IMG/VR virus record: IMGVR_UViG_3300042691_035629 | Location: 1 to 40,138 of that record | Strand: one strand, 5' to 3' | DNA: 40,138 nt | Source: a virus | In this document: one piece after another, positions 4,221 through 23,077 of the stretch | Layout of the letters: the number at the start of each line of letters is the position of its first letter | How positions within the stretch are numbered: position 1 is the stretch's first letter | Notes under the pieces: generated by a model | Told to the model about the DNA's origin: nothing | Seen by the model: only the letters and a program-made list of their open reading frames with translations | Databases searched by the model: none | Translations under genes and position numbers: made by a program

Positions 4221-4231
4221 GGAACCCCGGC

Positions 4232-5360: not shown

Positions 5361-5383
5361 GGGCGCCCTGTCTGGGTTACGCT
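5361..5383 (+). promoter_or_regulatory. Leader/promoter-like element, copy 1
   Basis: GGGCGCCC at 5361-5368 is followed nine bases later by TACGCT (5378-5383) and GGCGGTC. The same arrangement with identical spacing lies upstream of the gene at 5913. TACGCT is a plausible minus-10 box about 40 bases before the ATG. No convincing minus-35 is visible, and GGGCGCCC is itself palindromic and could bind a regulator. Confidence 0.4.
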
Positions 5384-5420
5384 GGCGGTCCCCACGACTA
5401 CCAGCCCCAGGAGGGCGCCC

Positions 5421-5711: not shown

Positions 5712-5778
5712 GGACGCGCTCGGATTCTTCCCGATGGCGCCGGCGCGCCTTGTATCGGGGCACCAACGCGTTACGCCG

Positions 5779-5828
5779 CATGGCCGGCCTCCGTGGTGGT
5801 GGCCGGCTGTGCGGCCTGGTTGAGGGGC
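5779..5828. repeat. 50-bp direct repeat, copy 1
   Basis: This 50-bp stretch recurs at 6348-6397 with only two mismatches. The second copy is the 3' end of the Cro-like gene. The repeats flank a block holding the second leader element and the small gene at 5913, suggesting duplication or insertion of an accessory unit next to the immunity region. Confidence 0.85.
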
Positions 5829-5849
5829 GCGGTGGGCGCGGGGATGGGC

Positions 5850-5872
5850 GGGCGCCCCACGTGCGATACGCT
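5850..5872 (+). promoter_or_regulatory. Leader/promoter-like element, copy 2
   Basis: GGGCGCCC (5850-5857), nine bases, then TACGCT (5867-5872) and GCCGTTC repeat the element at 5361-5383 with the same spacing. The ATG of the 79-aa gene follows 46 bases after the start of TACGCT. Promoter function is inferred from conservation of order and spacing. Confidence 0.4.
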
Positions 5873-5894
5873 GCCGTTCGTCACAACCGCAACC

Positions 5895-6350
5895 TCACGC
5901 ACGGGGGCCCCCATGGCAGACAGAGAACAACTTCTTCGAGACCTGACGCACAAGGACGAGCCCATCGAAGTCGGGCAGCGGGTCTACTACACCCTCGTCA
6001 GGCCGCAGAGCGAACGCACCGCTGGGCCAGCGCCGAGCGAGGAAGCCATCCGCACCGCAAAGCTCGTGGCCATGCTCGTGCAGCAGCTGGCGCAGGCGGG
6101 CCACATCAGCGCCGATCAGCTCGACGCCTGGCTGCTGCACGCCGTCCAGTAGCTCCAGCAGCCAAGCCAGGGCCAGCAGGCGCACGGCGGGGTCGAATCC
6201 GTCGTGCTCTGCACGCCAACGGTAGCCATCGGCACCAAGAGCCATGGCTTCGCGCCCGCTGGGCATACCGCCAAGGACCATCGCCATGAGCGCGCGCAGG
6301 CGGTTCAGCTGCCAGGTGGCGGGCGTGGCAGTGGGGCTGCGGTCAGACAT
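5895..6350 (-). CDS. Hypothetical protein, 151 aa, overlapping the end of the Cro-like gene
   Basis: The ATG at 6350 lies inside the 3' end of the Cro-like gene (8-nt overlap), as expected for the second gene of that transcript. The N-terminal half is convincing: WQLNRLRALMAMVLGGMPSG and VRLLALAWLLELLDG look like a folded helical protein with good codon bias. The C-terminal half is antisense to the plus-strand gene 5913-6152, and both frames look coding. I do not recognise the family. Either strand could be the real one in the overlap. Confidence 0.5.
   Translation of the reverse strand: MSDRSPTATPATWQLNRLRALMAMVLGGMPSGREAMALGADGYRWRAEHDGFDPAVRLLALAWLLELLDGVQQPGVELIGADVARLRQLLHEHGHELCGADGFLARRWPSGAFALRPDEGVVDPLPDFDGLVLVRQVSKKLFSVCHGGPRA
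5913..6152 (+). CDS. Hypothetical small accessory protein, 79 aa
   Basis: The ATG at 5913 follows a G-rich leader that is a second copy of the one ahead of the gene at 5421. The protein reads as a charged N-terminus, a short beta segment (GQRVYYTLVRPQSE) and a C-terminal helical hairpin (AKLVAMLVQQLAQAGHIS, then ADQLDAWLLHAVQ). Third positions are strongly G/C. No known domain is recognised. It is fully antisense to the 3' half of the minus-strand frame 5895-6350, so one of the two may be spurious. Confidence 0.5.
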   Translation: MADREQLLRDLTHKDEPIEVGQRVYYTLVRPQSERTAGPAPSEEAIRTAKLVAMLVQQLAQAGHISADQLDAWLLHAVQ

Positions 6351-6612
6351 GGCTGGCCTCCGAGGTGGTGGCCGGCTGTGCGGCCTGGTTGAGGGGCTCA
6401 GCCGCTGGCGCGGCGGGCGGCTTCACGGTGCCGCCGGCCAACTCGATGAGCTTCAGCGCCGGGTACGCGCCGATCTCCTTCGTCTTGCCGCTGGCCAGCC
6501 TCGACACCGATGGCTGCGACAGACCGATCGCGTCTCCAAGGCTCTTCGTCGTGTAGAGGCGCCGCTCGAGCAGGTCGCGGGCGATCTCGCAGAGATTGAT
6601 ACCTTGATGCAT
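6343..6612 (-). CDS. Cro-like helix-turn-helix regulator, 89 aa
   Basis: A small HTH protein is divergent from the repressor gene. The HTH spans about residues 15-45, with TKSLGDAIGLSQPSVSRLAS followed by GKTKEIG. The same SGKTKE motif occurs at the equivalent place in the divergent repressor, so both probably read related operators. The start is the ATG at 6612, nine bases after a good minus-10 box (TATCAT), so the mRNA would be nearly leaderless. The C-terminus is a Pro/Ala-rich tail encoded by the 50-bp repeat. It is the first gene of the leftward early transcript, a Cro-type position. Confidence 0.75.
   Translation of the reverse strand: MHQGINLCEIARDLLERRLYTTKSLGDAIGLSQPSVSRLASGKTKEIGAYPALKLIELAGGTVKPPAAPAAEPLNQAAQPATTSEASHV
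6348..6397. repeat. 50-bp direct repeat, copy 2
   Basis: This is the second copy of the repeat at 5779-5828 (48 of 50 bases identical), here forming the 3' end of the Cro-like gene and the start codon region of the 151-aa frame. Confidence 0.85.
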
Positions 6613-6620
6613 AGGCCCAC

Positions 6621-6648
6621 ATGATACGGCCGCGCATCACCTTTGCAA
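6621..6648 (-). promoter_or_regulatory. Leftward early promoter with overlapping operator
   Basis: On the minus strand, TTGCAA (6643-6648), a 16-nt spacer and TATCAT (6621-6626) form a good sigma-70-type promoter for the Cro-like gene. An 18-bp imperfect palindrome, TGATACGGCCGCGCATCA (6622-6639), covers the minus-10 box and spacer. A closely related site lies in the rightward promoter at 7174-7191, so this is very likely a repressor/Cro operator. Confidence 0.7.
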
Positions 6649-6671
6649 GCCCTGGGCGCCAAAATGCACCG

Positions 6672-7037
6672 ATGCATTACCGGCGCTCAGTTGATCCGCG
6701 TGACCGAATCCGCGAACTGCGTACCCTTCGGGGCTTCCGCAGTGATCGTGCTTTGGCCACTGCAGCGGGCCTTGAACAGCCGACGCTGTCGCGCTACCTC
6801 AGCGGGAAGACCAAAGAGATGACAGTCGACAACCTTGAAGCGCTGGCAAGAACGCTCAAGGTCACGCTCAGCGAGTTGATCGGCGAAGTGCCGCTGTCAT
6901 CACGCGCCGCTGTGGGCGAGGCCGAAGCCATCTTCCGTCTGCTGAGCGACGACCAGCTGCGCCAAGTCATCAACGTGGCACGGGCCCTGTTCCCGCACGA
7001 GACGGGCGGCTTTAAGCCTCCGGCAAGTCCAGAGTAA
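6672..7037 (+). CDS. Phage repressor, XRE-family HTH, 121 aa
   Basis: The protein carries a canonical XRE helix-turn-helix in residues 12-67, including ALATAAGLEQPTLSRYLSGK followed by TKEMTVDNLEALARTLKVTL. A short C-terminal region (EAEAIFRLLSDDQLRQVINV) may mediate oligomerisation. It lacks the Ser-Lys peptidase domain of LexA-like CI repressors, so induction must use another route. The ATG at 6672 lies in the palindrome ATGCAT, which also forms the start of the divergent Cro-like gene. It is flanked by promoters carrying the same operator motif, the layout of a lysogeny switch. Which of the two HTH proteins keeps lysogeny is inferred. Confidence 0.8.
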   Translation: MHYRRSVDPRDRIRELRTLRGFRSDRALATAAGLEQPTLSRYLSGKTKEMTVDNLEALARTLKVTLSELIGEVPLSSRAAVGEAEAIFRLLSDDQLRQVINVARALFPHETGGFKPPASPE

Positions 7038-7170
7038 CGCTGAACAGGCCGTCCGGGCCGCCGCCGTAGACCCGGCAGCCAACGGCCACTTCGCCCAGAT
7101 GGCCAAAGCCGTCGCGCTGCAGCGCCTGGCGGAAGGTAGCAGGGAAAATGATGCGTCGATGTATTGACAC
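7012..7170 (-). CDS. Possible small protein, 52 aa, convergent with the repressor
   Basis: A minus-strand frame opens with GTG at 7170 (TTG at 7173 is an alternative) inside the rightward promoter. It ends 26 nt inside the 3' end of the repressor gene. It reads a compact, protein-like sequence, FRQALQRDGFGHLGEVAVG followed by CRVYGGGPDGLFSVTLDLP, with good codon bias. No ribosome-binding site is obvious and the start lies within operator DNA. I do not recognise it. It could be a small regulator transcribed leftward or a chance frame. Confidence 0.4.
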   Translation of the reverse strand: MSIHRRIIFPATFRQALQRDGFGHLGEVAVGCRVYGGGPDGLFSVTLDLPEA

Positions 7171-7192
7171 CAACGATACGCGGACGCATCAT
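7149..7192 (+). promoter_or_regulatory. Rightward early promoter with two operator sites
   Basis: TTGACA (7164-7169), a 17-nt spacer and CATCAT (7187-7192) form a promoter for the plus-strand early operon. A perfect 10-bp inverted repeat (7148-7157 and 7183-7192) brackets it. The site at 7174-7191 shares GATACG-N4-CGCATCA with the operator at 6622-6639. A weaker site at 7149-7166 overlaps the minus-35 box. Repressor binding here would block the promoter. Confidence 0.7.
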
Positions 7193-7220
7193 CGTGCCGT
7201 CAACACGACGGAGGCGCCAA

Positions 7221-7580
7221 GTGCCGCACACAGCAACCATCCGAGCCACCGACCTAGACTTCGTCTTGGTCGCCCACCGGCTGCGCCGCCGCACCCACGG
7301 CCGCACCCCGGCCCTGTGCGTGATGTCCCCGGGCCCGTACCTGCATGTGGACTGCGCGAGCAGCAGCGAGCACACGCGGCCCGGCCTCATCGCCACCGCC
7401 AAGCGCCTGGGCGCGGCCCCGCTGAACAGCCAGCCGCTCATGCGCGGCCACATCGGCCGCCTCATCGAGCGCACGCGCCGCCAGCACGGCCTGGCTGAAG
7501 TGCGCCGCACCTGGCGCACCGGCCTGCGCGCCCTGCTGGCCGAGCCGCGCCACGTGCTGCACGGGGGTGCCGCGTCATGA
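7221..7580 (+). CDS. Hypothetical early protein, 119 aa
   Basis: This is the first gene of the rightward early operon. The GTG at 7221 is chosen because GGAGG (7210-7214) lies six bases upstream. The protein is basic and Arg-rich, with a central segment LCVMSPGPYLHVDCASSSE and a helical C-terminus (LIERTRRQHGLAEVRRTW). No known family is recognised. It overlaps the next gene by ATGA. Being first behind a repressor-controlled promoter, it is expected to be expressed immediately on induction. Confidence 0.65.
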   Translation: MPHTATIRATDLDFVLVAHRLRRRTHGRTPALCVMSPGPYLHVDCASSSEHTRPGLIATAKRLGAAPLNSQPLMRGHIGRLIERTRRQHGLAEVRRTWRTGLRALLAEPRHVLHGGAAS

Positions 7581-7951
7581 GTGCCCTCGACGACGCCATC
7601 GCCACCCACATGGCCCACGGTGCAGGCGCCTGCGCCGACCCGCTCACCGACAGCCTGGCCGAGCAGTGCGCTCACTCGGCCGAGCCGCCGCCCCGGCTGC
7701 ACCTGCGGCCGGGCTGGGAGAACGAGCCGCCCGAGCCGCCCATCCCCTGGCGCTGGATCTGGCCGGCCGCCGCCGCGGTGACGCTGCTGCTGGGCTTGCT
7801 GGGCGGCTGCGGCGGTGGCGAAGAGCCCTGCCGAGCCGACTTCACCGGCCCGCCCGCGCCGGGCTTCGAAGACCTGCCCGTGTGCGAAGACCCGGGCCGC
7901 GCCCGCATCACCCCGCCCGCCTGCGTGGCCGACCCGAGGCTCTGCGCATGA
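7577..7951 (+). CDS. Small membrane protein, 124 aa
   Basis: The start is ATG at 7577, coupled to the preceding stop by ATGA. One clear membrane helix, WIWPAAAAVTLLLGLLGG, about residues 63-80, follows a Pro- and Trp-rich segment. The C-terminal 45 residues contain four Cys and many Pro and may lie outside the membrane if the orientation is N-in. The family is not recognised. Together with the next gene it forms a pair of small early membrane proteins. Host takeover or superinfection exclusion are possible roles, but neither is shown by the sequence. Confidence 0.6.
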   Translation: MSALDDAIATHMAHGAGACADPLTDSLAEQCAHSAEPPPRLHLRPGWENEPPEPPIPWRWIWPAAAAVTLLLGLLGGCGGGEEPCRADFTGPPAPGFEDLPVCEDPGRARITPPACVADPRLCA

Positions 7952-8199
7952 GCGGCCTGCACATCCCCCTGCCCCGCCGCGCGCCGCCTTACGGCAGCAC
8001 GCCGCCGGCCAGCTTTGACGCCAGCGGCCCCGCGCCGCACACCGCCGCACTGAAGGGCACCTGGCTCGACGGCTACGCCTACGGCGAGCGCGTGGGCCAC
8101 GTCACCGGCTGGCGCTGGGGCATGGTCTGCGGCGGTGGCGTGATGCTGCTGCTGTGCACCGTGGCCGTGGCCGCAGCCAAAGGCCTGGGGTGGCTGTGA
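7948..8199 (+). CDS. Small membrane protein, 83 aa
   Basis: ATG at 7948 overlaps the previous stop (ATGA). The N-terminal half is soluble and Pro-rich. A central GTWLDGYAYGERVGHVTGWRW segment leads into a C-terminal membrane helix, WGMVCGGGVMLLLCTVAVAA. This gives a tail-anchored topology. No known family is recognised. It is coupled to the following gene by TGATG. Confidence 0.6.
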   Translation: MSGLHIPLPRRAPPYGSTPPASFDASGPAPHTAALKGTWLDGYAYGERVGHVTGWRWGMVCGGGVMLLLCTVAVAAAKGLGWL

Positions 8200-8642
8200 T
8201 GGGCGCTGCACTCCCCCAAGCCCACTCGCACGCCCACCCGCACGGCCGGCGCGTGCAGGCGCCTGCACAGCCGCCGCGCCACCCTGGCGCGCTGCGCGTC
8301 ACCGGCAGCCTCACCAGCGCGGCCGAGCTGCGCCCCACCACCGACGTGCCCATGCGCCTGCTGCTGTGCGTGCAGCTGCAGCCCGAGCGCGGCCTGCCCT
8401 ACGTGGCGCGCGTCGACCTGGGCACCGACCCCAGCGACCACTTGGCCGCAGACGCACTGCTGCCCCATCTGCGCGCCGGGGCCGTGCTGAGCGTGGCTGC
8501 GGAGGCACTGGAGTTGCGCAGCGACCACGCCTGCCAGGTGCTGCGCCTGGTGCAGCCGCACAGCGTGCTGCTGCTCGAGCACCCGCGCGAACCCGCCGGC
8601 GCGGCCGAGCCCGACCTCTTTGCCACCGCCACAGGAGCCTGA
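8199..8642 (+). CDS. Hypothetical protein, possible OB-fold, 147 aa
   Basis: ATG at 8199 shares a base with the upstream TGA. After a His/Pro-rich N-terminus the segment ALRVTGSLTSAAELRPTTD, then LLLCVQLQPERGLPYVARVD, reads as alternating beta-strands. It resembles the first strands of small OB-fold single-strand-binding proteins of the PriB/SSB kind, but the resemblance is weak. The N-terminal coding region contains a palindrome, GTGCAGGCGCCTGCAC (8253-8268), repeated in the ParB-like gene. If it does bind single strands it would support replication and also influence attC folding further down the operon, which is speculation. Confidence 0.5.
   Translation: MGAALPQAHSHAHPHGRRVQAPAQPPRHPGALRVTGSLTSAAELRPTTDVPMRLLLCVQLQPERGLPYVARVDLGTDPSDHLAADALLPHLRAGAVLSVAAEALELRSDHACQVLRLVQPHSVLLLEHPREPAGAAEPDLFATATGA
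8254..8275. repeat. 22-bp exact repeat containing GCAGGCGCCTGC, copy 1
   Basis: This 22-bp stretch recurs exactly at 11163-11184 inside the ParB-like gene. Its palindromic core GCAGGCGCCTGC also occurs at 7622-7633, and a one-base variant, GCAGACGCCTGC, at 277-288, 1278-1289 and 3892-3903. It is a candidate binding site for the phage ParB-like protein. Confidence 0.6.
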
Positions 8643-8644
8643 CC

Positions 8645-9019
8645 ATGCCCCCGCACGACACGCCCGTCATCCTGCGCGATGGCCCTTTCACGGTGCTGGC
8701 CCAGCGCCACGAGGTGATGTTCCACGACGGCCTGGCCGTGGGCCTGCACCCGGTGGCCAGCCACGGCCAGGTGCAGGTGTTCCTGCGCGCGGTGCATGCC
8801 GAAGGCATACGCTGGGTACTGTTCGATTTGCGCCAGGTGCCCGGCGAGCTGCACGACGATCTGCTGCGCTTGCAGCCGCGCGACCACATCGGCGCGGTGT
8901 TCTACACCCTGCGCCTGCAGTACCGCACCCGCAAAGCCTTCGTCGACGCGCTCGACAAGCTCGCGGTGCGCACGTGGTGGGCAGGCAAAGCGCAGCAGCT
9001 GCAGGAGCTGGCTGCATGA
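8645..9019 (+). CDS. Hypothetical protein, 124 aa
   Basis: ATG at 8645 is preceded by AGGAG (8632-8636). The protein has mixed alpha/beta character with segments such as VILRDGPFTVLAQRHEVMF and IRWVLFDLRQVPGELHDDLL, and a helical C-terminus. No membrane helix and no recognised motif are present. It overlaps the dNMP kinase gene by ATGA, so it may act in early metabolism, but no function can be assigned. Confidence 0.65.
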   Translation: MPPHDTPVILRDGPFTVLAQRHEVMFHDGLAVGLHPVASHGQVQVFLRAVHAEGIRWVLFDLRQVPGELHDDLLRLQPRDHIGAVFYTLRLQYRTRKAFVDALDKLAVRTWWAGKAQQLQELAA

Positions 9020-9582
9020 CGGGCGCCCACTGCACCAAGCCGCTGCTCATCGGCCTAGTGGGCCGCGCCGGCGCGGGCAAGAGCACAGTGGCCGGCATGC
9101 TGAGCGAGGACTACGCCTTCACCGAGCTGGCCTTTGCCGAGCCACTGCTCGACATGGTGTGCGCACTGTTTGCCCATGCCGGCATCGATGGCGCCTGGGC
9201 CGTGGAACGCGCCCTCAAGGAACAGCCCACCACGCTGGGTTTCAGCTACAGGCACCTGGCGCAGACGCTGGGCACCGAGTGGGGCCGCGGCCTGGCGCCC
9301 GACTTCTGGGTGCGCGTCATGGAGCACCGGCTCTCGAGCCCCGCCCTCGAGGGCGACAACCTCGTCATCAGCGACGTGCGTTTCCCGAACGAAGCCGAGC
9401 TCATCACCCGCCGCGGCGGCGTGCTGGTGCGCGTGCTGCGCAACGGGCCAGGCCACACCCGCGCCCACATCAGCGAGCAGCACGTCGACACGCTGCCCGT
9501 CCACACCGAGCTGCTGAACTTCGGCAGCACCGCCACGCTGGCCGACCAGGTCGACCGGCTCATCCACACCCTGAGGAGCTGA
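9016..9582 (+). CDS. Deoxynucleoside monophosphate kinase
   Basis: The 188-aa protein has an N-terminal P-loop GLVGRAGAGKSTVAGML (about residues 13-29) and the segment VISDVRFPNEAELI. That second segment is characteristic of the phage dNMP kinase family related to T4 gp1. Such enzymes phosphorylate dNMPs to dNDPs, feeding precursors to phage DNA synthesis in the cytoplasm. The length and the order of motifs fit the family. The ATG at 9016 overlaps the upstream stop. It sits mid-operon with unknown early genes and the ParB-like gene. Confidence 0.85.
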   Translation: MTGAHCTKPLLIGLVGRAGAGKSTVAGMLSEDYAFTELAFAEPLLDMVCALFAHAGIDGAWAVERALKEQPTTLGFSYRHLAQTLGTEWGRGLAPDFWVRVMEHRLSSPALEGDNLVISDVRFPNEAELITRRGGVLVRVLRNGPGHTRAHISEQHVDTLPVHTELLNFGSTATLADQVDRLIHTLRS

Positions 9583-9586
9583 CCCC

Positions 9587-11488
9587 ATGGCCGACACAGG
9601 CACGCCCGACACCATCATCCAGATCCCGCTCGAGCACCTGCACGAGAGCCCCTTCAACCCGCGCAAAACCTTCACCGCCATCGACGAGCTGGTGGCCAAC
9701 ATCAAGGGCGAGGGGCGCATCCACTCGCCGCTGCTGGTGCGCCCGCGCATCCCGCCGCTCTTCGACGCAGGCGCCGACACCCAGCCCGAGGCCGTGGCCG
9801 GCTACGAGCTCGTCTTCGGCCACCGCCGCTATCGCGCCGCCCAGCTGGCCGGCCTGGCCACCGCGCCGTGCATGGTGCGTGCGATGACGGACGCCGAGGC
9901 CCGCAGCGCGCAGATCGCCGAGAACCTGGCGCGCAAGGACGTGCACCCCATTGAAGAGGCCGAGGGCTTCGAAGCCATGCTCAGGCACGACGGCATCACC
10001 GCCGACGAGCTGGCCGGGCTGGTGGGCAAGAGCCGCAGCTACGTTTACGGCCGCCTCAAGCTGCTGCAGGCCGTGCCGCAGGTGCGCGATGCGTGCCTGC
10101 GCGGCGAGATCGACGCCGAGGCCGCGCTGCTGGTCGCGCGCGTGGGCCTGGCCAAGCTGCAAGAAAAGGCCCTGGCCCGCATCAAGGCCATGAGCGTGAG
10201 CCTGGGCGACGGCGGCAAGGCCAGCTACAGGCGCATCAAGGCCGAGCTGGCCGACAGCTTTACGCTGCAGCTCAAGGGCGCCATCTTCGACCGCGAAGAC
10301 GCCCAGCTGCTGCCCGGCGCCGGCACCTGCAGCGCCTGCCCCAAGCGCACGGGCAATTCGCCGGTGTTCGAAGACGTGGCCACCGAGGGCATCAACACCT
10401 TGAGCTGGGAGCACAGCTCGCTCAACCACGTGGGCGAGCCCAACCGCTGCACCGACCCCGACTGCTGGGACGCCAAGACCAAGGCGCACCTGGCCGCCGG
10501 CGCGGCCAAGCTCGAGGCCGAGGGCAAGCTCGTCGTCACCGGCAACAAGGCGCGCCAGGCACTGGATGCAGCCGGCACCCCGCGCAACGGCTACCTGCCG
10601 CTCGATCGCGTGAAGGCCGAGCTGAAGAAGGCCGCCAGGCCCGTGCCGGTGGTGCACGTGCAAGACCAGCGCACCGGCAAGCTCGTGAAGGCGGTGCGCC
10701 GCGAAGACCTGGTGGCCGCGGGGCTGGCCAAGCCAGAGCCCAAGGCGGCCGAGAAGGGCCGCAAGGACGAGAGCTACGAAGCCCGCCAGAAGCGCCAGGA
10801 GGCCGAGTACCAGGCCAAGCGCGAGAAGGCGGCCGCAGACACCGAGGCCAACCGCCGCTTGCTGCTGGCCGTGCGCGGTGCGGCCGCCACCCGCGAGCGC
10901 ACTGAGTTCGAACTGCGGCTGCTGGTCGCCGCGGCGCTGGCGTCGACGAGCTACGACGTCTGGCCCACGCTCACCTGGCTGTACGACAGCGACATGGAGA
11001 GCCTTAAGCGCCGCGTGGACACCATGAGCGCGGACGAGCTCACGCAGTTGCTGCTCGACTGCGCCATCGTCGACCACGTCGAGACGCGAGCGGGCTGGGA
11101 CGAGAAGCCCGAGCCGCTGCTGGCCCTTGCCGCGCACTACGGCATCGACGCCCTGGCCGCCATGCAGGCGCCTGCACAGCCGCCCACTGAAGGCACTTCT
11201 ACCCCTTCCACCGCTGGCGCGCGCGCAAAGCATGCGGCGCCCAAGGGCGTGGCGTATCACTGCGCCGAGACAGGCGAGTCGTGGTCTGGCCGGGGCCTGC
11301 GGCCCGCCTGGCTGCGGGCCAAGATCGCTGGAGGCGCGTCGCTGAGCGACTTCGCGGTGGCCAAGAAGGCCAAGCCCGAAGCCAAGAGCAAGACCAAGGG
11401 CAAGAAAGTGAATGACGACGCCGGCTCCGCCGGCGGCCAGGGCGCCACCACCGCGGGGCTCTTCGAGGCGAATGAGGTGCACGCATGA
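9587..11488 (+). CDS. ParB-like DNA-binding protein with H-NS-like C-terminus
   Basis: This 633-aa protein begins with a ParB/Srx domain: ESPFNPRKTF, then ELVFGHRRYRAAQLAGL, the NTP-binding GHRRYRAA motif. The ENLARKD box and an HTH (TADELAGLVGKSRSYVYGRL) follow at about residues 145-165. A Cys cluster (CSAC, then CTDPDC) around residues 246-300 may bind zinc. A charged coiled-coil linker follows. The last 80 residues contain GESWSGRGLRPAWLRAKIAG, which matches the H-NS C-terminal DNA-binding motif. There is no ParA in the window, so plasmid-style partition is unlikely. Transcription control, DNA organisation or replication-site marking are more plausible. Confidence 0.85.
   Translation: MADTGTPDTIIQIPLEHLHESPFNPRKTFTAIDELVANIKGEGRIHSPLLVRPRIPPLFDAGADTQPEAVAGYELVFGHRRYRAAQLAGLATAPCMVRAMTDAEARSAQIAENLARKDVHPIEEAEGFEAMLRHDGITADELAGLVGKSRSYVYGRLKLLQAVPQVRDACLRGEIDAEAALLVARVGLAKLQEKALARIKAMSVSLGDGGKASYRRIKAELADSFTLQLKGAIFDREDAQLLPGAGTCSACPKRTGNSPVFEDVATEGINTLSWEHSSLNHVGEPNRCTDPDCWDAKTKAHLAAGAAKLEAEGKLVVTGNKARQALDAAGTPRNGYLPLDRVKAELKKAARPVPVVHVQDQRTGKLVKAVRREDLVAAGLAKPEPKAAEKGRKDESYEARQKRQEAEYQAKREKAAADTEANRRLLLAVRGAAATRERTEFELRLLVAAALASTSYDVWPTLTWLYDSDMESLKRRVDTMSADELTQLLLDCAIVDHVETRAGWDEKPEPLLALAAHYGIDALAAMQAPAQPPTEGTSTPSTAGARAKHAAPKGVAYHCAETGESWSGRGLRPAWLRAKIAGGASLSDFAVAKKAKPEAKSKTKGKKVNDDAGSAGGQGATTAGLFEANEVHA
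11163..11184. repeat. 22-bp exact repeat containing GCAGGCGCCTGC, copy 2
   Basis: This is an exact copy of 8254-8275, here within the 3' part of the ParB-like gene. Both encode the peptide QAPAQPP in unrelated proteins, which argues for selection on the DNA rather than on the protein. Confidence 0.6.
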
Positions 11489-12836: not shown

Positions 12837-13907
12837 ATGCTCACCACCCAGGCACCGCCCACCTCTGCGCCTGTTACGCGCCGCGCTGAGGCGGGGTTCG
12901 CGCGCACGGCAAGCGCTGCGCCGGAGCCTGGCGAGCGCGGCCACCTGCAGCACCTGCTGGTGTCGGCCATCCGCACCCGCCACTACAGCCGCCGCACCGA
13001 GCAGGCCTATTGGCACTGGACGCGGCAGTTCGTGCTCTGGTCTGGCAAGCGTCACCCGATCGACATGGGCGCCCCCGAGGTCGGTGCGTTCCTGTCCTAC
13101 CTCGCCACCGAGCGCGGCGTCAGTGCCAGCACCCAGCGCCAGGCCCTGGCCGCGCTGCTGTTCCTGTACCGCCAGGCGCTGCAGCTCGAGCTGCCCTGGG
13201 TCGACGACATCGTGCGGGCCAAACAGCCGCAGCGCCTGCCGGTCGTGCTCACGCGCGACGAGATCGGCCGCCTCTGGCAGCAGATCCCGCAGGCCTCGCG
13301 CCGCGGCTTGGTGCTGCGCCTGCTGTACGGCACCGGCATGCGTCTGCTCGAGGGCCTGCGCCTGCGCGTGAAAGACATCGACTTCGGCACCGGCAGCATT
13401 ACCGTGCGCGGCGGCAAGGGCAACAAGGACAGGACCGTCATGCTGCCCCAGAGCCTGGCGCCCGAGCTGCGCGAGGTGCTGGCCGAGCGCGAACGCTGGC
13501 ACTCGGTCGATCTGGCCACCGGCCACGCCGACGTCGAGCTGCCCGGCGCTCTGCACCTCAAGTACCCGGCCGCGCCGCGCCAGCTGGGCTGGCAGTTTGT
13601 CTTCGCCACCGAGGCTTATGTCACCTGCCCGCGCACCGGCGCCATCCGCCGCCACCACCTGCACGAAGACGGCATCCAGCGCCTCATGGCCAAGGCCGTG
13701 AAGGCGGCGCGCATCCACAAGACGGCCACGCCGCACACCCTGCGCCACAGCTTCGCCACGCACTTGCTGCAGGCAGGGTACGACATCCGCAGCATCCAGC
13801 AGCTGCTGGGCCATGCAGACGTCGAGACGACGATGATCTACACGCACGTGCTGCCGGCCAGCCAGGGCGGCCGCGGCGTGCTGAGCCCGCTCGACACCCT
13901 CGCCTGA
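12837..13907 (+). CDS. intI: Integron integrase (IntI-type tyrosine recombinase)
   Basis: The 356-aa protein follows the integron integrase pattern throughout. HYSRRTEQAYWHWTRQF forms the N-terminal core-binding region and LLYGTGMRLLEGLRLRVKD holds the first catalytic Arg (about residue 169). GGKGNKDRTVMLP holds the Lys, HTLRHSFATHLLQAGYDIR holds His/Arg (about 300-303), and TTMIYTHVL holds the Tyr (about 335). The diagnostic IntI-specific insert is present: LPGALHLKYP through FVFATEAY to RRHHLHEDGIQRL, about residues 235-282. The C-terminus GGRGVLSPLDTLA is also typical. All catalytic residues are kept, so it is probably active on attI x attC. The TGA overlaps the ATG of the HTH gene (TGATG). 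There is no strong ribosome-binding site. Confidence 0.93.
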   Translation: MLTTQAPPTSAPVTRRAEAGFARTASAAPEPGERGHLQHLLVSAIRTRHYSRRTEQAYWHWTRQFVLWSGKRHPIDMGAPEVGAFLSYLATERGVSASTQRQALAALLFLYRQALQLELPWVDDIVRAKQPQRLPVVLTRDEIGRLWQQIPQASRRGLVLRLLYGTGMRLLEGLRLRVKDIDFGTGSITVRGGKGNKDRTVMLPQSLAPELREVLAERERWHSVDLATGHADVELPGALHLKYPAAPRQLGWQFVFATEAYVTCPRTGAIRRHHLHEDGIQRLMAKAVKAARIHKTATPHTLRHSFATHLLQAGYDIRSIQQLLGHADVETTMIYTHVLPASQGGRGVLSPLDTLA

Positions 13908-14266: not shown

Positions 14267-15381
14267 CGTGGGACCAGGCCGTCGTGGCTTGGTTGGAAGA
14301 GCACCAGCACCGCCGCAGTATCGAAGAAATCAAGCGCGTGCTGCGCTGGCTCACCGGCCACCTGCGCGGCAAGGCGCTGGCCGAGATCACCGACCCCGTC
14401 ATCCGCCAGCTGGCCAAGGCCCGCAAGGCCGAGCCCGTCAACCGCCGCACCATCGCCCGCGCGCTCGCGGCCGACAAGCCGGCCCCGAAGCCCAAGCCCA
14501 CCAGCGGCGCCACCGTCAACCGGCACCTGGCCCAGCTCAGCGCCGTGCTGCACTACGCCCACAAGCGCCGCTGGCTCGACGCCGTGCCGCCCATCACCAA
14601 GGCGCCCGAGCCCGCCAAGCGCGTGGCCTGGCTCACCCGAGACCAGGCCGAGCTGCTGCTGGCCGAGCTGCCGCCGCACCTGCGCGCCATGGCCCGCTTC
14701 GGCCTGGCCACCGGTCTGCGCGAGACGAACATCCGGCTGCTCACGTGGCACCAGGTTGACACCGCCCGCGCCGTGGCGTGGTTTGAGGCAGCCGAGATGA
14801 AGGCCGCCAAGGCCCACAGCGTGCCGCTCAACCCCGAGGCGTTGCAGGTGCTGGCCCTACAGCGCGGCAAGCACCCGCGCTGGGTGTTCCCGGTGCCGCA
14901 CTGGGTGCCGGGCGACAAGCCCGGCGACAAGCCCCGCCTGGTGGAAGACGCGCCCACCGGCAAGATCAGCAGCGCGGCCTGGCGCAAGGCCTGCACCCGC
15001 GCAGGCGTGCCCTGGCTGCGCTTCCACGATCTGCGCCACACCTGGGCCAGCTGGCACGTGCAGGCCGGCACCCCGCTGGCCGTGCTGCAGGAACTGGGCG
15101 GATGGGCCAGCCTGGCCATGGTGCAGCGCTACGCCCACCTGGGCAGCAGCCACGTGGCGCAGTGGGCCGGAAACCTCTCCCGAGGCGGCACAACTCTGGC
15201 ACAACCTGCACCGGCACCCACCAACGAAAAAGCCCCCGAAGGGGCTGTTCACGAGGGAGAAGCGGTGGGGTGGCTGATGGGACTCGAACCCACGACGACC
15301 AGAATCACAAGACGTTCCCAGGGCGCCGAGGTGTTGAAGATCAACGACTTACAGCGCCGCCGCAAGCCTAAAGCGGCTTGA
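14089..15381 (+). CDS. int: Phage tyrosine integrase (tRNA-His site)
   Basis: This 430-aa recombinase has catalytic residues in ATGLRETNIRLLTWHQVD (Arg about 210), HDLRHTWASW (about 313-316) and the Tyr in MVQRYAHLG (about 348). It catalyses integration and excision of the prophage. The C-terminal tail GWLMGLEPTTTRITRR is the translation of the antisense of a tRNA 3' half, so the attP core lies inside the coding region. Integration would replace the last codons with host sequence. The late-operon terminator and an 18-bp direct repeat also lie within the 3' end. The ATG at 14089 follows GGGGG. Confidence 0.93.
   Translation: MRLYQRGERGTWWVDLGEVAGQRARRSTGTSDRAAAQEYAATLARDLWRARRLGETPTVTWDQAVVAWLEEHQHRRSIEEIKRVLRWLTGHLRGKALAEITDPVIRQLAKARKAEPVNRRTIARALAADKPAPKPKPTSGATVNRHLAQLSAVLHYAHKRRWLDAVPPITKAPEPAKRVAWLTRDQAELLLAELPPHLRAMARFGLATGLRETNIRLLTWHQVDTARAVAWFEAAEMKAAKAHSVPLNPEALQVLALQRGKHPRWVFPVPHWVPGDKPGDKPRLVEDAPTGKISSAAWRKACTRAGVPWLRFHDLRHTWASWHVQAGTPLAVLQELGGWASLAMVQRYAHLGSSHVAQWAGNLSRGGTTLAQPAPAPTNEKAPEGAVHEGEAVGWLMGLEPTTTRITRRSQGAEVLKINDLQRRRKPKAA
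15186..15203. repeat. 18-bp direct repeat, left candidate integrase arm site
   Basis: CGGCACAACTCTGGCACA occurs here and at 15385-15402, on either side of the attP core (62 and 74 bp away). Paired direct repeats flanking a core are typical of integrase arm-binding sites. Confidence 0.65.
15227..15246 (-). terminator. Late-operon terminator (minus strand)
   Basis: A six-pair stem AGCCCC/GGGGCT (15231-15236 and 15241-15246) closes on a UUCG tetraloop in minus-strand RNA. It is followed by five T residues, one of which closes the stem. It is the first terminator met after the last lysis gene and lies antisense inside the integrase gene. Confidence 0.8.
15266..15310 (-). other. attP: attP core: 3' half of tRNA-His
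   Basis: On the minus strand 15310-15266 reads the 3' half of a tRNA. It holds an anticodon loop TTGTGAT with anticodon GTG (His), a T-arm GTGGG-TTCGAGT-CCCAT, the acceptor strand CAGCCAC, the discriminator C typical of tRNA-His, and CCA. The 5' half is missing, so it is not a tRNA gene. About 45 bp of identity would rebuild the host tRNA after integration. It occurs once and undisrupted, as in an excised or virion genome. Confidence 0.88.
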
Positions 15382-15439: not shown

Positions 15440-15547
15440 TCAGCGGCGCCGGCTGCGCCACAGGTCGCGCAGGGTCACGGCCAGGCCGAGCAGCACCAGC
15501 GGGACACAGAGCAGCGCCGGCACCACCATGGCAGCCAACCGCCTCAT
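15440..15547 (-). CDS. Tiny membrane peptide, 35 aa
   Basis: ATG at 15547 overlaps the Rz1 stop (ATGA). The peptide is one membrane helix (MVVPALLCVPLVLLGLAVTL) followed by the basic tail RDLWRSRRR, giving N-out/C-in topology by the positive-inside rule. It is the last gene of the late operon. A role in lysis is inferred only from position. The family is not recognised. Confidence 0.5.
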   Translation of the reverse strand: MRRLAAMVVPALLCVPLVLLGLAVTLRDLWRSRRR

Positions 15548-15777
15548 CGCACCACCGCCAGCGCCGCCGCCCTGCACTGCCAGTACAGCCCCACCACCTC
15601 GAGCAGCTTGCGCGTGGTGCCGCCGAAGCTGTCGTCGGCCAGCGGCGTGAGCTCAGGGCACGACGCCACCACCAGCGGCGCTGCCGGCGGCGGCGGGGCC
15701 GAGCGCGGCATTGATGCGCTGCAGCTGCTCAGGAGAATGGCGGCAGTCACGGTACTCAGTACGCACCTGGATCTCAC
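15544..15777 (-). CDS. Rz1-like outer-membrane spanin lipoprotein
   Basis: The GTG at 15777 opens a frame that overlaps the 3' part of the Rz gene out of register, the classic Rz/Rz1 arrangement. The 77-aa product starts with a short lipoprotein signal (VLSTVTAAILLSSC) with Cys19 in the lipobox. A Pro-rich stretch (APPPPAAP) follows, as in Rz1 proteins. After lipidation it would sit in the outer membrane and pair with Rz to fuse the membranes at lysis. It extends 109 nt beyond the Rz stop, so it is only partly embedded. Confidence 0.78.
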   Translation of the reverse strand: MRSRCVLSTVTAAILLSSCSASMPRSAPPPPAAPLVVASCPELTPLADDSFGGTTRKLLEVVGLYWQCRAAALAVVR

Positions 15778-15985
15778 GCTCGACCTCCTGGCGGATGGTG
15801 GTGTGTCGCACGCTCATGCGGGCGATGGCCTCGGCGGCCGCAGTGGCGCTTGCCTGGCCTGCCTGCGCGATGAGCCGCTCGTCGCGCGCCGCCTCGGCCT
15901 CGACTGCGCTGCGGCCGTCTTGCCGGCCCTGCCAGTAGGCACCGCCCGCGGCCGCGGCGGCCAGCAGCAGTGCCCAGGGCCACAT
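15653..15985 (-). CDS. Rz-like inner-membrane spanin
   Basis: This 110-aa protein has an N-terminal membrane helix (WPWALLLAAAAAGGAYW) and then a long periplasmic, charged coiled-coil region (AVEAEAARDERLIAQAGQAS and on to HTTIRQEVEREIQVRTEYRD). That is the usual Rz design. With Rz1 it spans the periplasm and disrupts the outer membrane after the wall is opened. The ATG at 15985 lies two bases after the upstream stop (TGATCATG). Confidence 0.78.
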   Translation of the reverse strand: MWPWALLLAAAAAGGAYWQGRQDGRSAVEAEAARDERLIAQAGQASATAAAEAIARMSVRHTTIRQEVEREIQVRTEYRDCRHSPEQLQRINAALGPAAAGSAAGGGVVP

Positions 15986-15987
15986 GA

Positions 15988-16284
15988 TCACGTCGGCGCC
16001 CTTTCGTCCAGATCCCCCGCCCTGCTGTCCAGCCGCGTGCCGGCGGGCGCCGCGTAGCGCCAGCGCGGCGCGCCGGCCAGCAGGTACATGGTCACGCCCA
16101 GGGCCATGCTCAGCTTGCCCAGCGCGCCCGGGAACATCAGCCCGCCCATCAGGCCCAGGCCGATGACCAGGTGCGCCAGGAACACGCCCGGGTCTGTGAC
16201 CTTGTGGCGCATCTGGTTGACTCTGCAGACCACGCTCCACAGCGCCGCCAGGATGAGGGCAGCCGTCAGCACGCCGATCGTCAT
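15988..16284 (-). CDS. Small multi-pass membrane protein, holin candidate, 98 aa
   Basis: ATG at 16284 overlaps the preceding stop (ATGA). Hydrophobic segments MTIGVLTAALILAALWSVVC, VFLAHLVIGLGLMGGLMF and KLSMALGVTMYLLA suggest three membrane helices with a charged C-terminus. Size, topology and position directly before the spanins fit a class I holin, which makes the inner-membrane lesion that times lysis. It has no recognised family signature, and the adjacent membrane proteins are rival candidates. Confidence 0.6.
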   Translation of the reverse strand: MTIGVLTAALILAALWSVVCRVNQMRHKVTDPGVFLAHLVIGLGLMGGLMFPGALGKLSMALGVTMYLLAGAPRWRYAAPAGTRLDSRAGDLDERAPT

Positions 16285-16697
16285 GGTGACTCGTCCCCTT
16301 TGTTTTGCAGCGCCCGCGGCCGCAGGCTCCACACCCAGCGCGCCACGTTGAGCCAGTTGTGCCCGATGGCCGGCAGCAAAAACGCCACAGGCATGAGCGC
16401 GTCGGTGATCTTGACCCCGCCCGCCCACGGCACGGTGGCGCGCATGGCCTGCGTCAGCAGCTCGGCCACCGAGACGGTGACGCCCAGCGTGAGCACCAGC
16501 GACACCACCACGAAGCCCGCCAGCTGCAGCCGCGGCACCGGCGGCATGCGCCACAGGCCCACCAGCATGCCGCCGAACCAGCCCAGCACGATGGCGCCAT
16601 AGGCACCCACGGCCACCGCGAACTCGGGCCCCAGCAGCGCCGTCGCCGCCAGCACGGCCACGCTCACCAGGCCGGGCACTTGCTCGTCATGCACCAT
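16281..16697 (-). CDS. Multi-pass membrane protein of the lysis region, 138 aa
   Basis: ATG at 16697 overlaps the upstream gene by 11 nt. Membrane helices are visible at VSVAVLAATALLG, AVAVGAYGAIVLGWFGGMLV, LAGFVVVSLVLTLGVTVSV and ITDALMPVAFLLPAIG. A soluble basic tail follows (SLRPRALQNKGDESP). It could be a second holin or antiholin, or an unrelated membrane protein. The sequence alone does not decide. Confidence 0.6.
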   Translation of the reverse strand: MVHDEQVPGLVSVAVLAATALLGPEFAVAVGAYGAIVLGWFGGMLVGLWRMPPVPRLQLAGFVVVSLVLTLGVTVSVAELLTQAMRATVPWAGGVKITDALMPVAFLLPAIGHNWLNVARWVWSLRPRALQNKGDESP

Positions 16698-17076
16698 GGG
16701 GCACCTCGTCGTCGAGCCGTTGCGAGATGGCGGCGGCCAGCAGCATCAGCAGCCACAGGCCCACCGCGCCCAGCGGCAGGCCGAAGCGCGCGCTGCACTG
16801 CTCGGCACCCGGCACCACCGGCCACGGCGCGGCCAGCCACAGCAGCGAGCAGCCGGCCGTGAGCAGCTGCCACACGCCGGCCAGCGCCGCCACCGCCCAC
16901 ACCCAGCCGCTGCGGTAGGCGTTGGCCAGCAGCGAGAGCAGCACCAGCACCAGCAGCGCCTGGCTGGCGTTCCAGACGTCGGCCTGGGTGTCGGGCGACA
17001 CGTGCTTCCAGGCGTGCTGAGCCAGGCCGGCCACCAGCAGCACGCCGGCTGCCTCGTTGAGGTAGCGCCGCCTCAT
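16687..17076 (-). CDS. Multi-pass membrane protein of the lysis region, 129 aa
   Basis: ATG at 17076 overlaps the upstream stop (ATGA). Hydrophobic segments AAGVLLVAGLAQ, SQALLVLVLLSLLANAY, VWAVAALAGVWQLLTAG and AVGLWLLMLLAAAI predict four helices separated by short loops. The N-terminus begins with MRRRYLNE. It is one of three consecutive polytopic proteins. No known family is recognised, and a lysis role is inferred from context. Confidence 0.6.
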   Translation of the reverse strand: MRRRYLNEAAGVLLVAGLAQHAWKHVSPDTQADVWNASQALLVLVLLSLLANAYRSGWVWAVAALAGVWQLLTAGCSLLWLAAPWPVVPGAEQCSARFGLPLGAVGLWLLMLLAAAISQRLDDEVPHGA

Positions 17077-17222
17077 CGTGGCGTACCCGGGCGCGGGCCG
17101 CCGCCGCTGTGCGGGCGCAGCAGCATGGCCTTGAGGGTGTCGCCCTCTTGCCGCTGGCGGCAGGCGATGAACAGGTAGCAGGCCACCGCGCCCGATACAA
17201 CCAACAGGGCATTCATCAGCAT
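17073..17222 (-). CDS. Small single-pass membrane protein, 49 aa
   Basis: The ATG at 17222 is preceded by GGAGA (17233-17229). One membrane helix, LMNALLVVSGAVACYLFIAC, about residues 2-21, is followed by a basic cytoplasmic-type tail (RQRQEGDTLKAMLLRPHSGG). It starts the lysis block and overlaps the next gene by ATGA. The function is unknown, and an antiholin-like regulator is one option. Confidence 0.55.
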   Translation of the reverse strand: MLMNALLVVSGAVACYLFIACRQRQEGDTLKAMLLRPHSGGGPRPGTPR

Positions 17223-19954: not shown

Positions 19955-22051
19955 TTAGCCCATGTTGCTGAAGTTGATGCCCACGTCTTCGTAGAACTCG
20001 GTGGTCTGCAGCACACCGTCGACAGCCCGGCGCCCGGCCACCGTGTGGGCAATCTGCCGCCACGGGCCGCGCATACCCAAGGTGTTGACGGCCCGCGCGC
20101 GCACCGCCACCAGGATGCCGATGCGCTGGCCGACGATGTCGGCCGCGGTGGCGTTGCCGGCCACCATCACCACGGTGGGCCAGTCGCCTGTGGGCAGGCC
20201 GCCGGCCACCTCAGCGGCCTGCACCTCGATGCGGCCGCTCTGGCGCACGGCCTCGCTGGCGATGGCGTCCCAGCTCACCCGCACGCGGGCCAGTGCGCTG
20301 CGGTCGGCCTGGTCTTCGGTGCCGCTGGTGGCCACCAGGCCGGTAAGCGGCGGCACCAGGCCAGGCCGCGGCAGTGCCGTGTTCGGTGACGTGTTGATCA
20401 GGTCGAACACCGCATCGGGCGTGTAAATTGCGGCAGCGGTTTCGCGCAGGGTGAGCAGCACGCCGCCCGTCAGGCTGAAGCGCCAGCCCACTACCTCGAA
20501 CAGCTTGGCATCGAACCCGAAGCGGGGCAGCGTGACGCCGACGACGTCGAACAGCTCGAGCGGGTACGCGCGCAAGTTGCAGGGCAGCGTGATGGTGAGG
20601 CCCTCGCGCGCCTCGCGCAGCAGCACGCCGCACACATGCTGGGCATGCACCGCGCGGGTGACGCCGCCGAGCTGGATCTCGCTCACCAGCTCGCGGCCGT
20701 CGGCCGTCACGTAGCTGTCGGCGCGCACCTCGGGTCCAGGCGTCTGCACGTAGACCTGCGCTGCGTCGGCGTAGGTGGGCTTGATGATGTTGATGGCCTC
20801 GCCGGTGCTGGCCCCTGGCACCAGCTGGATGGCCTCGGCACCGGTCACCCAGTCTTCGGTGATGGTGGCCACCGGCGCGCGGTACACGCCGGCGCGCACG
20901 CTCAGGCGCCCGCCAGCCCAGCCCCACTGGCCGGCCATGGCCTCGCAGATCTCGCCCAGCGCCTCGTCGGGGTTGCTGTCGAGCGGGATGACGATGCCGC
21001 ACTGGTACAGCGGCAGCACCACGGGGCCGCCCGTGGGCACGGCAAAGGCGGTGCTCACGTCGCAGGCATTGGCCGCCGCCGCGAAGGCGGGCTCGTTGAG
21101 CTCGTCGGTGATGCAGCCGCCGCCGTTGGCGTACAGACTCCAGTCACGGGCAATCAGGGCAGGGTTTTCGGTCCACGCGGTGCTGGCCGTGCGCGGGTCG
21201 TACACGCGGGCCCCGCGAACGATGGCCGTGATCGAGGGCACGCCGGAGGGGAAGGCGTCCTGGTCGAAGGTAAGCGTCACCAGCAGCGCGGCAATGCCCT
21301 CGAAGCGATCGGTGGACTGCACTGCGGTGCCCACCAGGGCCTCGAGGTCGGCGTAGAGGTTTTGGCCCGGTGCGCCGGTGTAGCGCCGCACGCGCGCCTT
21401 GCTGGCAGTGATGTCGGTCTGGTAGAGGATGTCCCAGCCGGCCACAGCCACGCCGAAGACGGCCTCTCCGCTGCCGTTCCAGCTGCCGACCTCGGTGCTG
21501 GATGTTTGGCTTTCGCCGCTGCCCGAGGTGATGGTGGCCATCGGCGGGATGCTGAGCACAGGCGAGCCCGTCACCACGTAGCCGCCACCGGGGCCCACGG
21601 TCGCGGCGGGGGTGGTGAGCGACTGCCGCGCCGTGATGGCCACGGGGGCCGTGATGACGTTGCCCGAGCCGTCCAGATCGACCGGCACTTCGTTGAAGTA
21701 GACCTGCTCGATGGCATCCACCTCGTGCCCGGCCAGGGCCACCACCAACGTGTAGAACTGCTTGTTGTCCCCGTGCGTCTGCTTGAACACCACGCCGTCG
21801 ACGTTGCGCACGCGGCCGTAGACGCGGCTGCGCGCGGCCTGCGCGGTGGCCGTCATGACCAGGCGGTCTTGCACGCTGGCGTTGGCGCGGTCGCGGGCCT
21901 TGCGCTGCGCCTTTCGGCGCTGGTGGCTGCCGTAGCTGAGCGTGGCGGCTGTGAAGGCCACGTAGGTGAGCGCGGTGATCTGCCCCAAGGTCAGCACGCT
22001 CGTGGCGGTGAGCGTGTTGGTGGCAATCCAGGCGGCGACAGTCTCAGGCAC
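19955..22051 (-). CDS. Tail tip attachment / host specificity protein (J-like)
   Basis: This 698-aa protein lies after the NlpC/P60-like gene and before the tail spike, the position of lambda J. It has an N-terminal hydrophobic segment (LTLGQITALTYVAFTAATL). A central region typical of baseplate-hub proteins follows (ALVVALAGHEVDAIEQVYFN, then WSLYANGGGCITDEL). The C-terminal part is fibronectin-like (ALARVRVSWDAI and on to VRARAVNTLGMRGPWRQ). It is shorter than lambda J, the receptor-binding part being on the separate spike. The GTG at 22051 is chosen for its GAGG site. It overlaps the upstream gene by eight bases. Confidence 0.8.
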   Translation of the reverse strand: MPETVAAWIATNTLTATSVLTLGQITALTYVAFTAATLSYGSHQRRKAQRKARDRANASVQDRLVMTATAQAARSRVYGRVRNVDGVVFKQTHGDNKQFYTLVVALAGHEVDAIEQVYFNEVPVDLDGSGNVITAPVAITARQSLTTPAATVGPGGGYVVTGSPVLSIPPMATITSGSGESQTSSTEVGSWNGSGEAVFGVAVAGWDILYQTDITASKARVRRYTGAPGQNLYADLEALVGTAVQSTDRFEGIAALLVTLTFDQDAFPSGVPSITAIVRGARVYDPRTASTAWTENPALIARDWSLYANGGGCITDELNEPAFAAAANACDVSTAFAVPTGGPVVLPLYQCGIVIPLDSNPDEALGEICEAMAGQWGWAGGRLSVRAGVYRAPVATITEDWVTGAEAIQLVPGASTGEAINIIKPTYADAAQVYVQTPGPEVRADSYVTADGRELVSEIQLGGVTRAVHAQHVCGVLLREAREGLTITLPCNLRAYPLELFDVVGVTLPRFGFDAKLFEVVGWRFSLTGGVLLTLRETAAAIYTPDAVFDLINTSPNTALPRPGLVPPLTGLVATSGTEDQADRSALARVRVSWDAIASEAVRQSGRIEVQAAEVAGGLPTGDWPTVVMVAGNATAADIVGQRIGILVAVRARAVNTLGMRGPWRQIAHTVAGRRAVDGVLQTTEFYEDVGINFSNMG

Positions 22052-22511
22052 GGGGCACCTCTTCAGGGGTGGCGGTGCAGCGCCAGGCGCGCACCACGGC
22101 ATCGGGCTGCAGCGCCACCACGCCCACAGCGGCCGCGGCGTGCCAGGCGGCGCCGCCCCACACCGCCAGCGACGGGCGCTCGGGGTCGTGGTGGCTCAGC
22201 CCCACGTCGCCGGGCTGGGCCAGTGCGGCGGGCACCACCTTGCCTGCCCGCGCGATGGCGATGCCGACGACGCCGCCCAGCTGCGCCAGCACGCGCGCGG
22301 CCTCGGCGGCGGTGCTGTAGGTGCCGCGCAGGTCGGCCGCGAGGTCGTGGCCCGTCACGGCCAGCACGGCATCGGCGGCGAAGAGGCAGCAGTCGTGCTG
22401 GCCCCACGTGAACGGCGTGCCCGCGCGCGCGGCGAACAGTGCGGCCAGGCGCTCGGGCCACTCTCGCACGCGCACAGACGGCAGGCGCTGGGCAGGTAGG
22501 GCGGTGCTCAT
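22044..22511 (-). CDS. NlpC/P60-like tail peptidase (DUF6950-type)
   Basis: The 155-aa protein contains TPFTWGQHDCCLFAADAV with the likely catalytic Cys (about residue 40). GHDLAADLRGTYST follows, and then a His in WGGAAWHAAAAVGV. This pattern is that of small cysteine peptidases encoded before the J-like gene, related in role to the lambda K protein. It would trim peptidoglycan stem peptides at the tail tip during entry. The ATG at 22511 overlaps the previous stop (ATGA). Since no other wall hydrolase is visible in the genome, it might also contribute to lysis. Confidence 0.72.
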   Translation of the reverse strand: MSTALPAQRLPSVRVREWPERLAALFAARAGTPFTWGQHDCCLFAADAVLAVTGHDLAADLRGTYSTAAEAARVLAQLGGVVGIAIARAGKVVPAALAQPGDVGLSHHDPERPSLAVWGGAAWHAAAAVGVVALQPDAVVRAWRCTATPEEVPRA

Positions 22512-23077
22512 TGGCGGAAGAAGCTGGCCGCTGGCCACTGGTCGGGCACCTGCGCCTGGCTCAGCACGTAGCGCAGGCTGGTGTCGGTGGGGTGCAGGCG
22601 CTGCTGGTCGCCGTCGGTGTAGCGCAGCGGCTTCGGGCGGCGGTAGGTGTCGCCGCGGTGGATGGCCACCACGCCGATGGTGCAGTCTTCTGCGCCGTGG
22701 CTGATGGGCATGGTGTCGAGCGTGCCGGTGAAGACGACAGGCGCGTCGAGCACGGCGTGGGTGTCGGGGTCCAGGATCACCAGGCGCAGCACGCAGCTGG
22801 TGCCGCGCACGTCTTCACCCAGCGCCAGGGCGATGCTGTCGCTGGGCACGCCCGACAGCGTGAACTGCAGGCCGGTGGTGCTTTGCACGGCGTCCGTCAC
22901 GGCCTCGACGGCGCCCAGGGTGCCGGTGCCGTAGTACAGCTGCCCGGCCCACTGGATGGCAACCGAGCCGGTGCACAAACGCACGGGCTCGGGTGAAAAG
23001 CCCAGGTCCAGAAGCAGGCACATGGGCACCACGGGCCCGGCCATCACGGCCTGCGCGGCCGGTGCGACGGTGCGCAC
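22508..23077 (-). CDS. Tail tip (baseplate-like) protein, 189 aa
   Basis: GTG at 23077 follows the previous TAG immediately. The protein shows CTGSVAIQWAGQLYYGTG, the stretch LVILDPDTHAVLDAP, VFTGTLDTM and RYTDGDQQRLHPTD. These segments recur in a family of phage tail-tip proteins encoded between the tape measure and the NlpC/P60-like gene, comparable in place to lambda L. It probably forms part of the hub between tail tube and tip. Confidence 0.68.
   Translation of the reverse strand: MRTVAPAAQAVMAGPVVPMCLLLDLGFSPEPVRLCTGSVAIQWAGQLYYGTGTLGAVEAVTDAVQSTTGLQFTLSGVPSDSIALALGEDVRGTSCVLRLVILDPDTHAVLDAPVVFTGTLDTMPISHGAEDCTIGVVAIHRGDTYRRPKPLRYTDGDQQRLHPTDTSLRYVLSQAQVPDQWPAASFFRQ

Follow-up and report, generated by a model that had tools for sequence, protein, structure and literature searches.

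How does a phage leave its host cell when its lysis operon holds several membrane proteins and a pair of spanins but no recognisable endolysin? The question is raised by IMG/VR virus record IMGVR_UViG_3300042691_035629, the whole of which (40,138 bases, classed as linear, 69.5% GC) was analysed and is referred to below as the window; it belongs to a temperate D3-type siphophage. It is assumed that tailed phages cannot do without an endolysin, and the canonical system of phage lambda consists of S, R and Rz/Rz1. In the window, positions 15440-17222 of the minus strand contain an operon of overlapping genes in the order p49-p129-p138-p98-Rz-Rz1-p35. An earlier description made from the letters alone (the sequence-only reading) had seen here Rz and Rz1 spanins, three multi-pass proteins and single-pass proteins of 49 and 35 amino acids (aa), with no endolysin; all of these genes were found in place on the minus strand, and no endolysin was detected in the block or in the other open reading frames (ORFs) scanned. 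As in the holin-endolysin-spanin system of lambda, the late region closes with membrane proteins and then Rz, in which Rz1 is nested; unlike lambda, the window has no endolysin. With some reserve, we favour reading the locus as a standard holin/endolysin/spanin operon minus its endolysin, with murein cleavage supplied in trans.

The evidence comes mainly from relatives. A scan with the tail-tip protein J returned 12 contigs, of which the eight at 71-75% identity were studied and L010-L013 (26-30%) were set aside. Six of the eight (L002, L003, L004, L005, L008 and L009; J 73-75% identical) carry p129, p138, p98 and Rz, with L002 ending inside Rz. At an E-value of 1e-3, five of these six also have p49, and Rz1 was seen in every contig that extends that far, five in all. 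In all six, a gene of 140 aa (420 nucleotides, nt), designated X, lies between p98 and Rz. For instance, L005 (IMGVR_UViG_3300042939_000785) and L008 (3300042484_003364) share the integrase next door and have p129, p138, p98, Rz and Rz1 in the same order at about 65-86% identity, p49 of L008 being 54% identical to that of the window; they differ from the window in having the M15-type peptidase X between p98 and Rz, and in lacking p35. In the other two J relatives, L006 and L007, the same slot holds a 187-aa protein of phrog_3108, and the L006 contig ends with that gene, leaving Rz out of view. Two relatives were also compared on the basis of the terminase large subunit (TerL): in G010, a gene for an Rz1-like lipoprotein is preceded by a phrog_3108 homolog, with a gene 31% identical to p138 upstream of the slot, and G009, a prophage of an isolate judging from its identifier, has a phrog_873 'endolysin' protein (1.1e-58) before Rz (54% identity to the window) and Rz1 (57%). 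The slot was occupied in 10 of the 10 relatives examined, a survey that set aside contigs L010-L013, L052-L054 and L058-L060, and its occupants are proteins of three unrelated kinds. The window has no endolysin in its cassette because this slot, filled by an endolysin candidate in every relative examined, is closed there. Further scans yielded little beyond this set: Rz1 matched only five contigs, all already known and all with X, p138 and p98 as single queries found no relatives in viral contigs, and p138 found none in phage records.

The closed slot lies at 15983-15994 on the minus strand, where, read by eye, TGATCA runs directly into an ATG of Rz, and the p98 stop and the Rz start share a 4-nt GTGA overlap. 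These six bases equal bases 2-7 of X in the relatives (ATGATCA), and by eye they stand 18 nt behind the same GATCTG in L003. They might thus be a six-base remnant of the start of X, with a chance of coincidence that we estimate ourselves at about 1 in 200; a MAFFT alignment did not place the six TGATCA bases in register with the X start.

Several kinds of evidence identify X. With Pfam family PF08291 (Peptidase_M15_3), X of L005 scored 23.0 bits, just under the cut-off of 23.2, while the homolog of L036 passed at 26.9 and that of L040 stayed below at 21.1. Against the phrog_894 endolysin family, X reached 0.0087, and all three homologs tested reached 7e-6 to 7e-7. An X scan returned 14 contigs, eight of them beyond the six J relatives, and in L034, L039 and L040 the homolog likewise comes after membrane-protein genes and before spanin-like genes. 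An H-x6-D ... H pattern (H80, D87 and H125, which we take to be the zinc ligands) is invariant in the 11-row alignment of X, and one public record annotates an X homolog as 'peptidase M15'. Structure prediction covered two proteins of the relatives, X and the phrog_3108 protein. The predicted X model (predicted local distance difference test, pLDDT, 92.7) aligned best in VIA-align 2 with the zinc DD-peptidase 1lbu (Z 9.0, root-mean-square deviation 3.1, 115 residues aligned), followed among endolysins by LysB4 (Z 7.5), Ply500 (7.0) and LysECD7 (6.7). Foldseek gave no match to the model under an E-value of 0.001, the best being 0.018 to ChiX; its first four matches are wall peptidases, presumably of the M15 kind. 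A sequence profile of X found no M15 match in the PDB, and NCBIfam gave no match of note. Taken together, X has a zinc-binding H-x6-D ... H pattern and a predicted M15 fold, both shared with 1lbu and the M15 endolysins LysECD7, LysB4 and Ply500, and the model points to an M15-type peptidase and endolysin candidate, a gene that the window does not have.

The second occupant, phrog_3108, has no assigned function in PHROGs. In Pseudomonas phage YL1, a member annotated as lysozyme immediately precedes an Rz-like spanin, and the family appears in AM.P2 as a 'putative lysozyme' before a 'putative endopeptidase'. Its predicted model was poor (pLDDT 65) and gave no Foldseek E-value under 0.4; the list included the SPN1S endolysin, the gp46 endolysin and a chitinase, at TM scores of 0.33-0.42 and E-values of 2.7-4.7, three hydrolase matches that are at most suggestive. 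In contig L046, positions 2986-3282 encode a 98-aa phrog_3108 homolog with a large internal deletion beside an Rz-like gene, perhaps another phage that is losing this enzyme.

The window was then considered as a whole. It contains 259 ORFs of at least 60 aa, and a subset was scanned as 79 translations against Pfam and 70 against PHROG (five scanned twice). None of these matched a wall hydrolase, and neither a profile built from gene X of the relatives nor phrog_3108 had a match in the window, so that the murein-degrading endolysin of the canonical double-stranded DNA (dsDNA) phage lysis system was not detected there by profile, Pfam or PHROG scans. Nor does a gap seem to conceal it. On the minus strand, the late genes begin with those of the terminase, at the right end, and finish with those for lysis, at 15.4 kb; an HNH endonuclease gene (2-556, minus strand, PF01844 2.6e-9), its 3' end open and beside a putative cos, lies at the left end, and the terminase small subunit gene (39508-40092, minus strand, PF05119 6.3e-16) at the right. 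In G004 (IMG/VR 3300042516_004603, 44 kb), the HNH gene adjoins the terminase small subunit gene and the sequence runs through the junction, of which all but about 12 nt can be traced in the window ends (by-eye comparison, assuming no indels). On this evidence the record appears to be essentially complete, and the idea of an endolysin gene hidden at the HNH-terminase junction was rejected. No end repeats were found in the 40,138 bases, and the ends would lie at the expected cos position, fitting packaged linear DNA. The phage is also present in a second record, as L057 (IMGVR_UViG_3300032093_002068) is identical over its positions 1-10958 to window positions 27775-38732 (10,958 bases, 100%); the cassette is not part of it.

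What is left of the operon is closely packed. Overlaps of 4 nt join p49/p129, p138/p98, p98/Rz and Rz1/p35, p129 and p138 overlap by 11 nt, and Rz1 lies largely within Rz. Membrane segments were counted by hydropathy (window 19, cut 1.6). The first gene, p49 (17073-17222, minus strand, as are all the following), has one segment, a 4-nt overlap links its stop to the p129 start, and it is 53-56% identical in five of the eight J relatives. The holin-like candidates p129 (16687-17076) and p138 (16281-16697) have three segments each and are 71-73% and 65-67% identical, respectively, in six of the eight; p98 (15988-16284), a holin/antiholin-like candidate with two segments, is 69-70% identical in the same number. 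No holin family matched these three above cut-off in the Pfam and PHROG scans, and p98 matched DUF2304 in Pfam at 6e-4, below cut-off. The i-spanin Rz (15653-15991, starting at GTG 15991 or ATG 15985) matched several spanin PHROGs (best 5.7e-4), has no membrane segment by hydropathy at the 1.6 cut, and, in relatives with contigs that extend to it, is 82-83% identical. The o-spanin Rz1 (15544-15777), nested in Rz in another frame, has a lipobox-like LSSC, matched phrog_2425 at 7.4e-6 (no function given) and, below cut-off, gave weak Rz1-like matches; it is 84-87% identical in four of four aligned relatives. The two-component Rz/Rz1 spanin of the canonical dsDNA phage system is therefore present.

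The remaining genes also seem to be maintained. Compared with L003, L005 and L008, the ratio of nonsynonymous to synonymous substitution rates (dN/dS) was 0.43-0.49 for p129, 0.48-0.53 for p138, 0.43-0.62 for p98 and 0.24-0.25 for the part of Rz before the Rz1 overlap, that is, 0.24-0.62 in all 12 comparisons, pairwise values that cover periods both preceding and following the loss. All remaining lysis genes are open, and by these sequence comparisons they appear to be under purifying selection.

Deletion of the endolysin gene itself is very probable, and, if it occurred, supply in trans is reasonably likely. The M15-type peptidase gene between p98 and Rz would have been precisely excised and the operon closed over the gap. 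At lysis time the membrane proteins p129, p138 and p98 would kill and depolarise the cell; murein would be cut by an enzyme that the phage does not encode, be it an autolysin of the host or an endolysin from another phage that is co-resident or co-infecting; and the outer membrane would then be breached by Rz/Rz1. Two cases, both Gram-positive, may serve as precedents by analogy: the pneumococcal autolysin LytA, activated by holin, is reported to contribute to the release of phage SV1 (PMC6116005), and one Listeria strain reportedly contains two phage elements with redundant lysis modules (PMC6872733). A literature search found no description of this cassette, which does not show its absence from print.

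Several points weigh against this reading. The dN/dS values reach back before the loss, as stated above, and p129, p138 and p98 are candidate holins by position and hydropathy only. Searches of genome contigs with TerL and J gave no match, so the host was not found. A 33-base probe of the junction had no match in viral contigs, and L057, the only record identical to the window, stops at 27775, short of the junction. Furthermore, 11 pneumococcal prophage groups without an endolysin gene are called defective (PMC8637289), and an endolysin-less phage of such a kind may simply be defective.

This last point leads to the alternative that survives best, although it is rather unlikely: the deletion is real and the phage is lysis-defective, existing as a prophage or as packaged DNA that never gets out of the cell unaided, with no substitute. 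Endolysin-less prophages are known both in pneumococcus and among Stx prophages, ten of which reportedly had the i-spanin alone detected (PMC8136144). The window resembles these in having no endolysin gene, but they are chromosomal prophages, the pneumococcal ones being read as incomplete, whereas here the phage and its cassette are otherwise intact and comparison tells which gene is missing. Against a defective phage, the recognised packaging, head and tail genes of the window are open, including the terminase, portal, prohead protease and capsid genes named by Pfam; the record ends at the HNH-terminase junction of its relatives, as linear packaged DNA would; and the neighbouring lysis genes show no decay.

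Somewhat less likely still is that an endolysin of unfamiliar type sits elsewhere in the window, for example among the structural genes p355, p270, p151, p164 and p165, or in an early gene. Endolysins outside the lysis cassette are known in other phages, and several window genes have neither a relative in the compared contigs nor a family. Such a gene was, however, not seen among the scanned translations, the late genes of unrecognised function sit in the head or tail modules, and the relatives hold their enzyme in the cassette. The sequence-only reading had offered two ways out, a hidden unfamiliar endolysin or another principle of lysis; the first did not turn up in the scans. The puzzle behind them proved to be real. 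Loss with supply in trans is a simpler reading than another principle.

That other principle would have to involve p35 (15440-15547, minus strand), a 35-aa protein with one membrane segment and a basic tail, whose start overlaps the Rz1 stop as ATGA. Between Rz1 and the integrase, the window is about 105 nt longer than L003, L005 and L008, three aligned relatives that retain the endolysin and lack p35, and this extra stretch encodes p35. Its codon-position GC of 0.77/0.51/0.94 is gene-like, the ORF occurs in the window only among 17 loci tested, and p35 has no sequence relative in phage records. It was considered whether p35, perhaps with p49, replaces the enzyme by blocking murein synthesis or triggering autolysis, like the single-gene lysis proteins of RNA and single-stranded DNA phages. 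Of the 436 ATGA/GTGA sites in the window, just three are followed by an ORF of 30-60 codons with a membrane segment and a third-position GC above 0.88, which speaks for p35; but two of those three are other ORFs, showing that p35-like ORFs arise by chance. Moreover, L038 has a different membrane ORF, of 79 aa, coupled to the Rz1 stop and yet keeps its endolysin, so p35 may be an accessory holin; in G010 a 74-aa one lies further on. Overall, three possibilities stand for p35: an accessory holin, a new lysis factor and an ORF that arose by chance. We consider it very improbable that p35 stands in for the enzyme, and just as improbable that a dsDNA phage has abandoned enzymatic murein cleavage altogether, gaining after endolysin loss a coupled p35 that causes enzyme-free wall failure while holins and spanins were kept.

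An assembly artefact, in which the true genome has an endolysin that the contig skips, is very unlikely: no independent sequence spans the junction, but the join preserves a perfect 4-nt overlap of the p98 stop and the Rz start, and by eye the relatives have no repeat of useful length at the edges of X. The least likely candidate of all is the gene at 22044-22538 (minus strand), which the sequence-only reading had taken as NlpC/P60-like and as the only possible wall hydrolase, and whose match is labelled 'putative peptidase' in two Pseudomonas phage records. It matched DUF6950 (PF22262, 2.6e-33), the sole Pfam family listed at E-values up to 1, with no match to NlpC/P60, and what is presumably the position of the NlpC/P60 catalytic histidine is Ser, Ala or Thr in the DUF6950 alignment; since it is flanked by tail genes outside the lysis cassette and recurs at 76-79% identity in every one of the eight J relatives, beside endolysin candidates of their own, it would hardly compensate for the loss, and a role as endolysin is barely credible.

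Other features of the genome were also noted. In TerL, the identity is 57% with Variovorax phage VarioGold and about 43% with Pseudomonas phage D3. An integron integrase (12837-13907, plus strand; NCBIfam TIGR02249, 2.3e-127, 424.7 bits against a cut-off of 265) adjoins the tyrosine integrase of the phage and is 88% identical in G002 and G005; integrons have been reported in phages (PMC9892861). At the integrase 3' end, 45 nt (15266-15310) share 95.6% identity with stretches of Burkholderia phages Magia and BgManors32 that carry no annotation, and are probably an attachment site. A ParB-like protein with an H-NS C-terminal domain (PF00816, 3e-10) is encoded at 9587-11488 on the plus strand. 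A deoxynucleoside monophosphate kinase was found among 45 ORFs scanned (phrog_139, 6.6e-42; Pfam DNMK, 1.2e-11), probably the ORF at 8620-9582 (plus strand), which has weak kinase matches. On the minus strand, a tail-region gene (27482-28729) has a short in-frame duplication, with VLSPTVNAPYRTP occurring twice, and an imperfect-repeat protein (ATESGGDT...; 28924-29991) lies in the block of unknown genes between capsid and connector.

Gene loss, a well-supported cause, mostly takes the place of another lysis principle as the account of this locus, and the remaining puzzle is the exit route of an otherwise intact phage. The slot comparison indicates that unrelated hydrolases swap freely between the same neighbours, and it helps to name endolysins that profiles miss, such as phrog_3108. 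A complete temperate phage in which the membrane proteins and spanins seem to be constrained and the enzyme has been dropped would offer a natural test of lysis borrowed from the host or from another phage.

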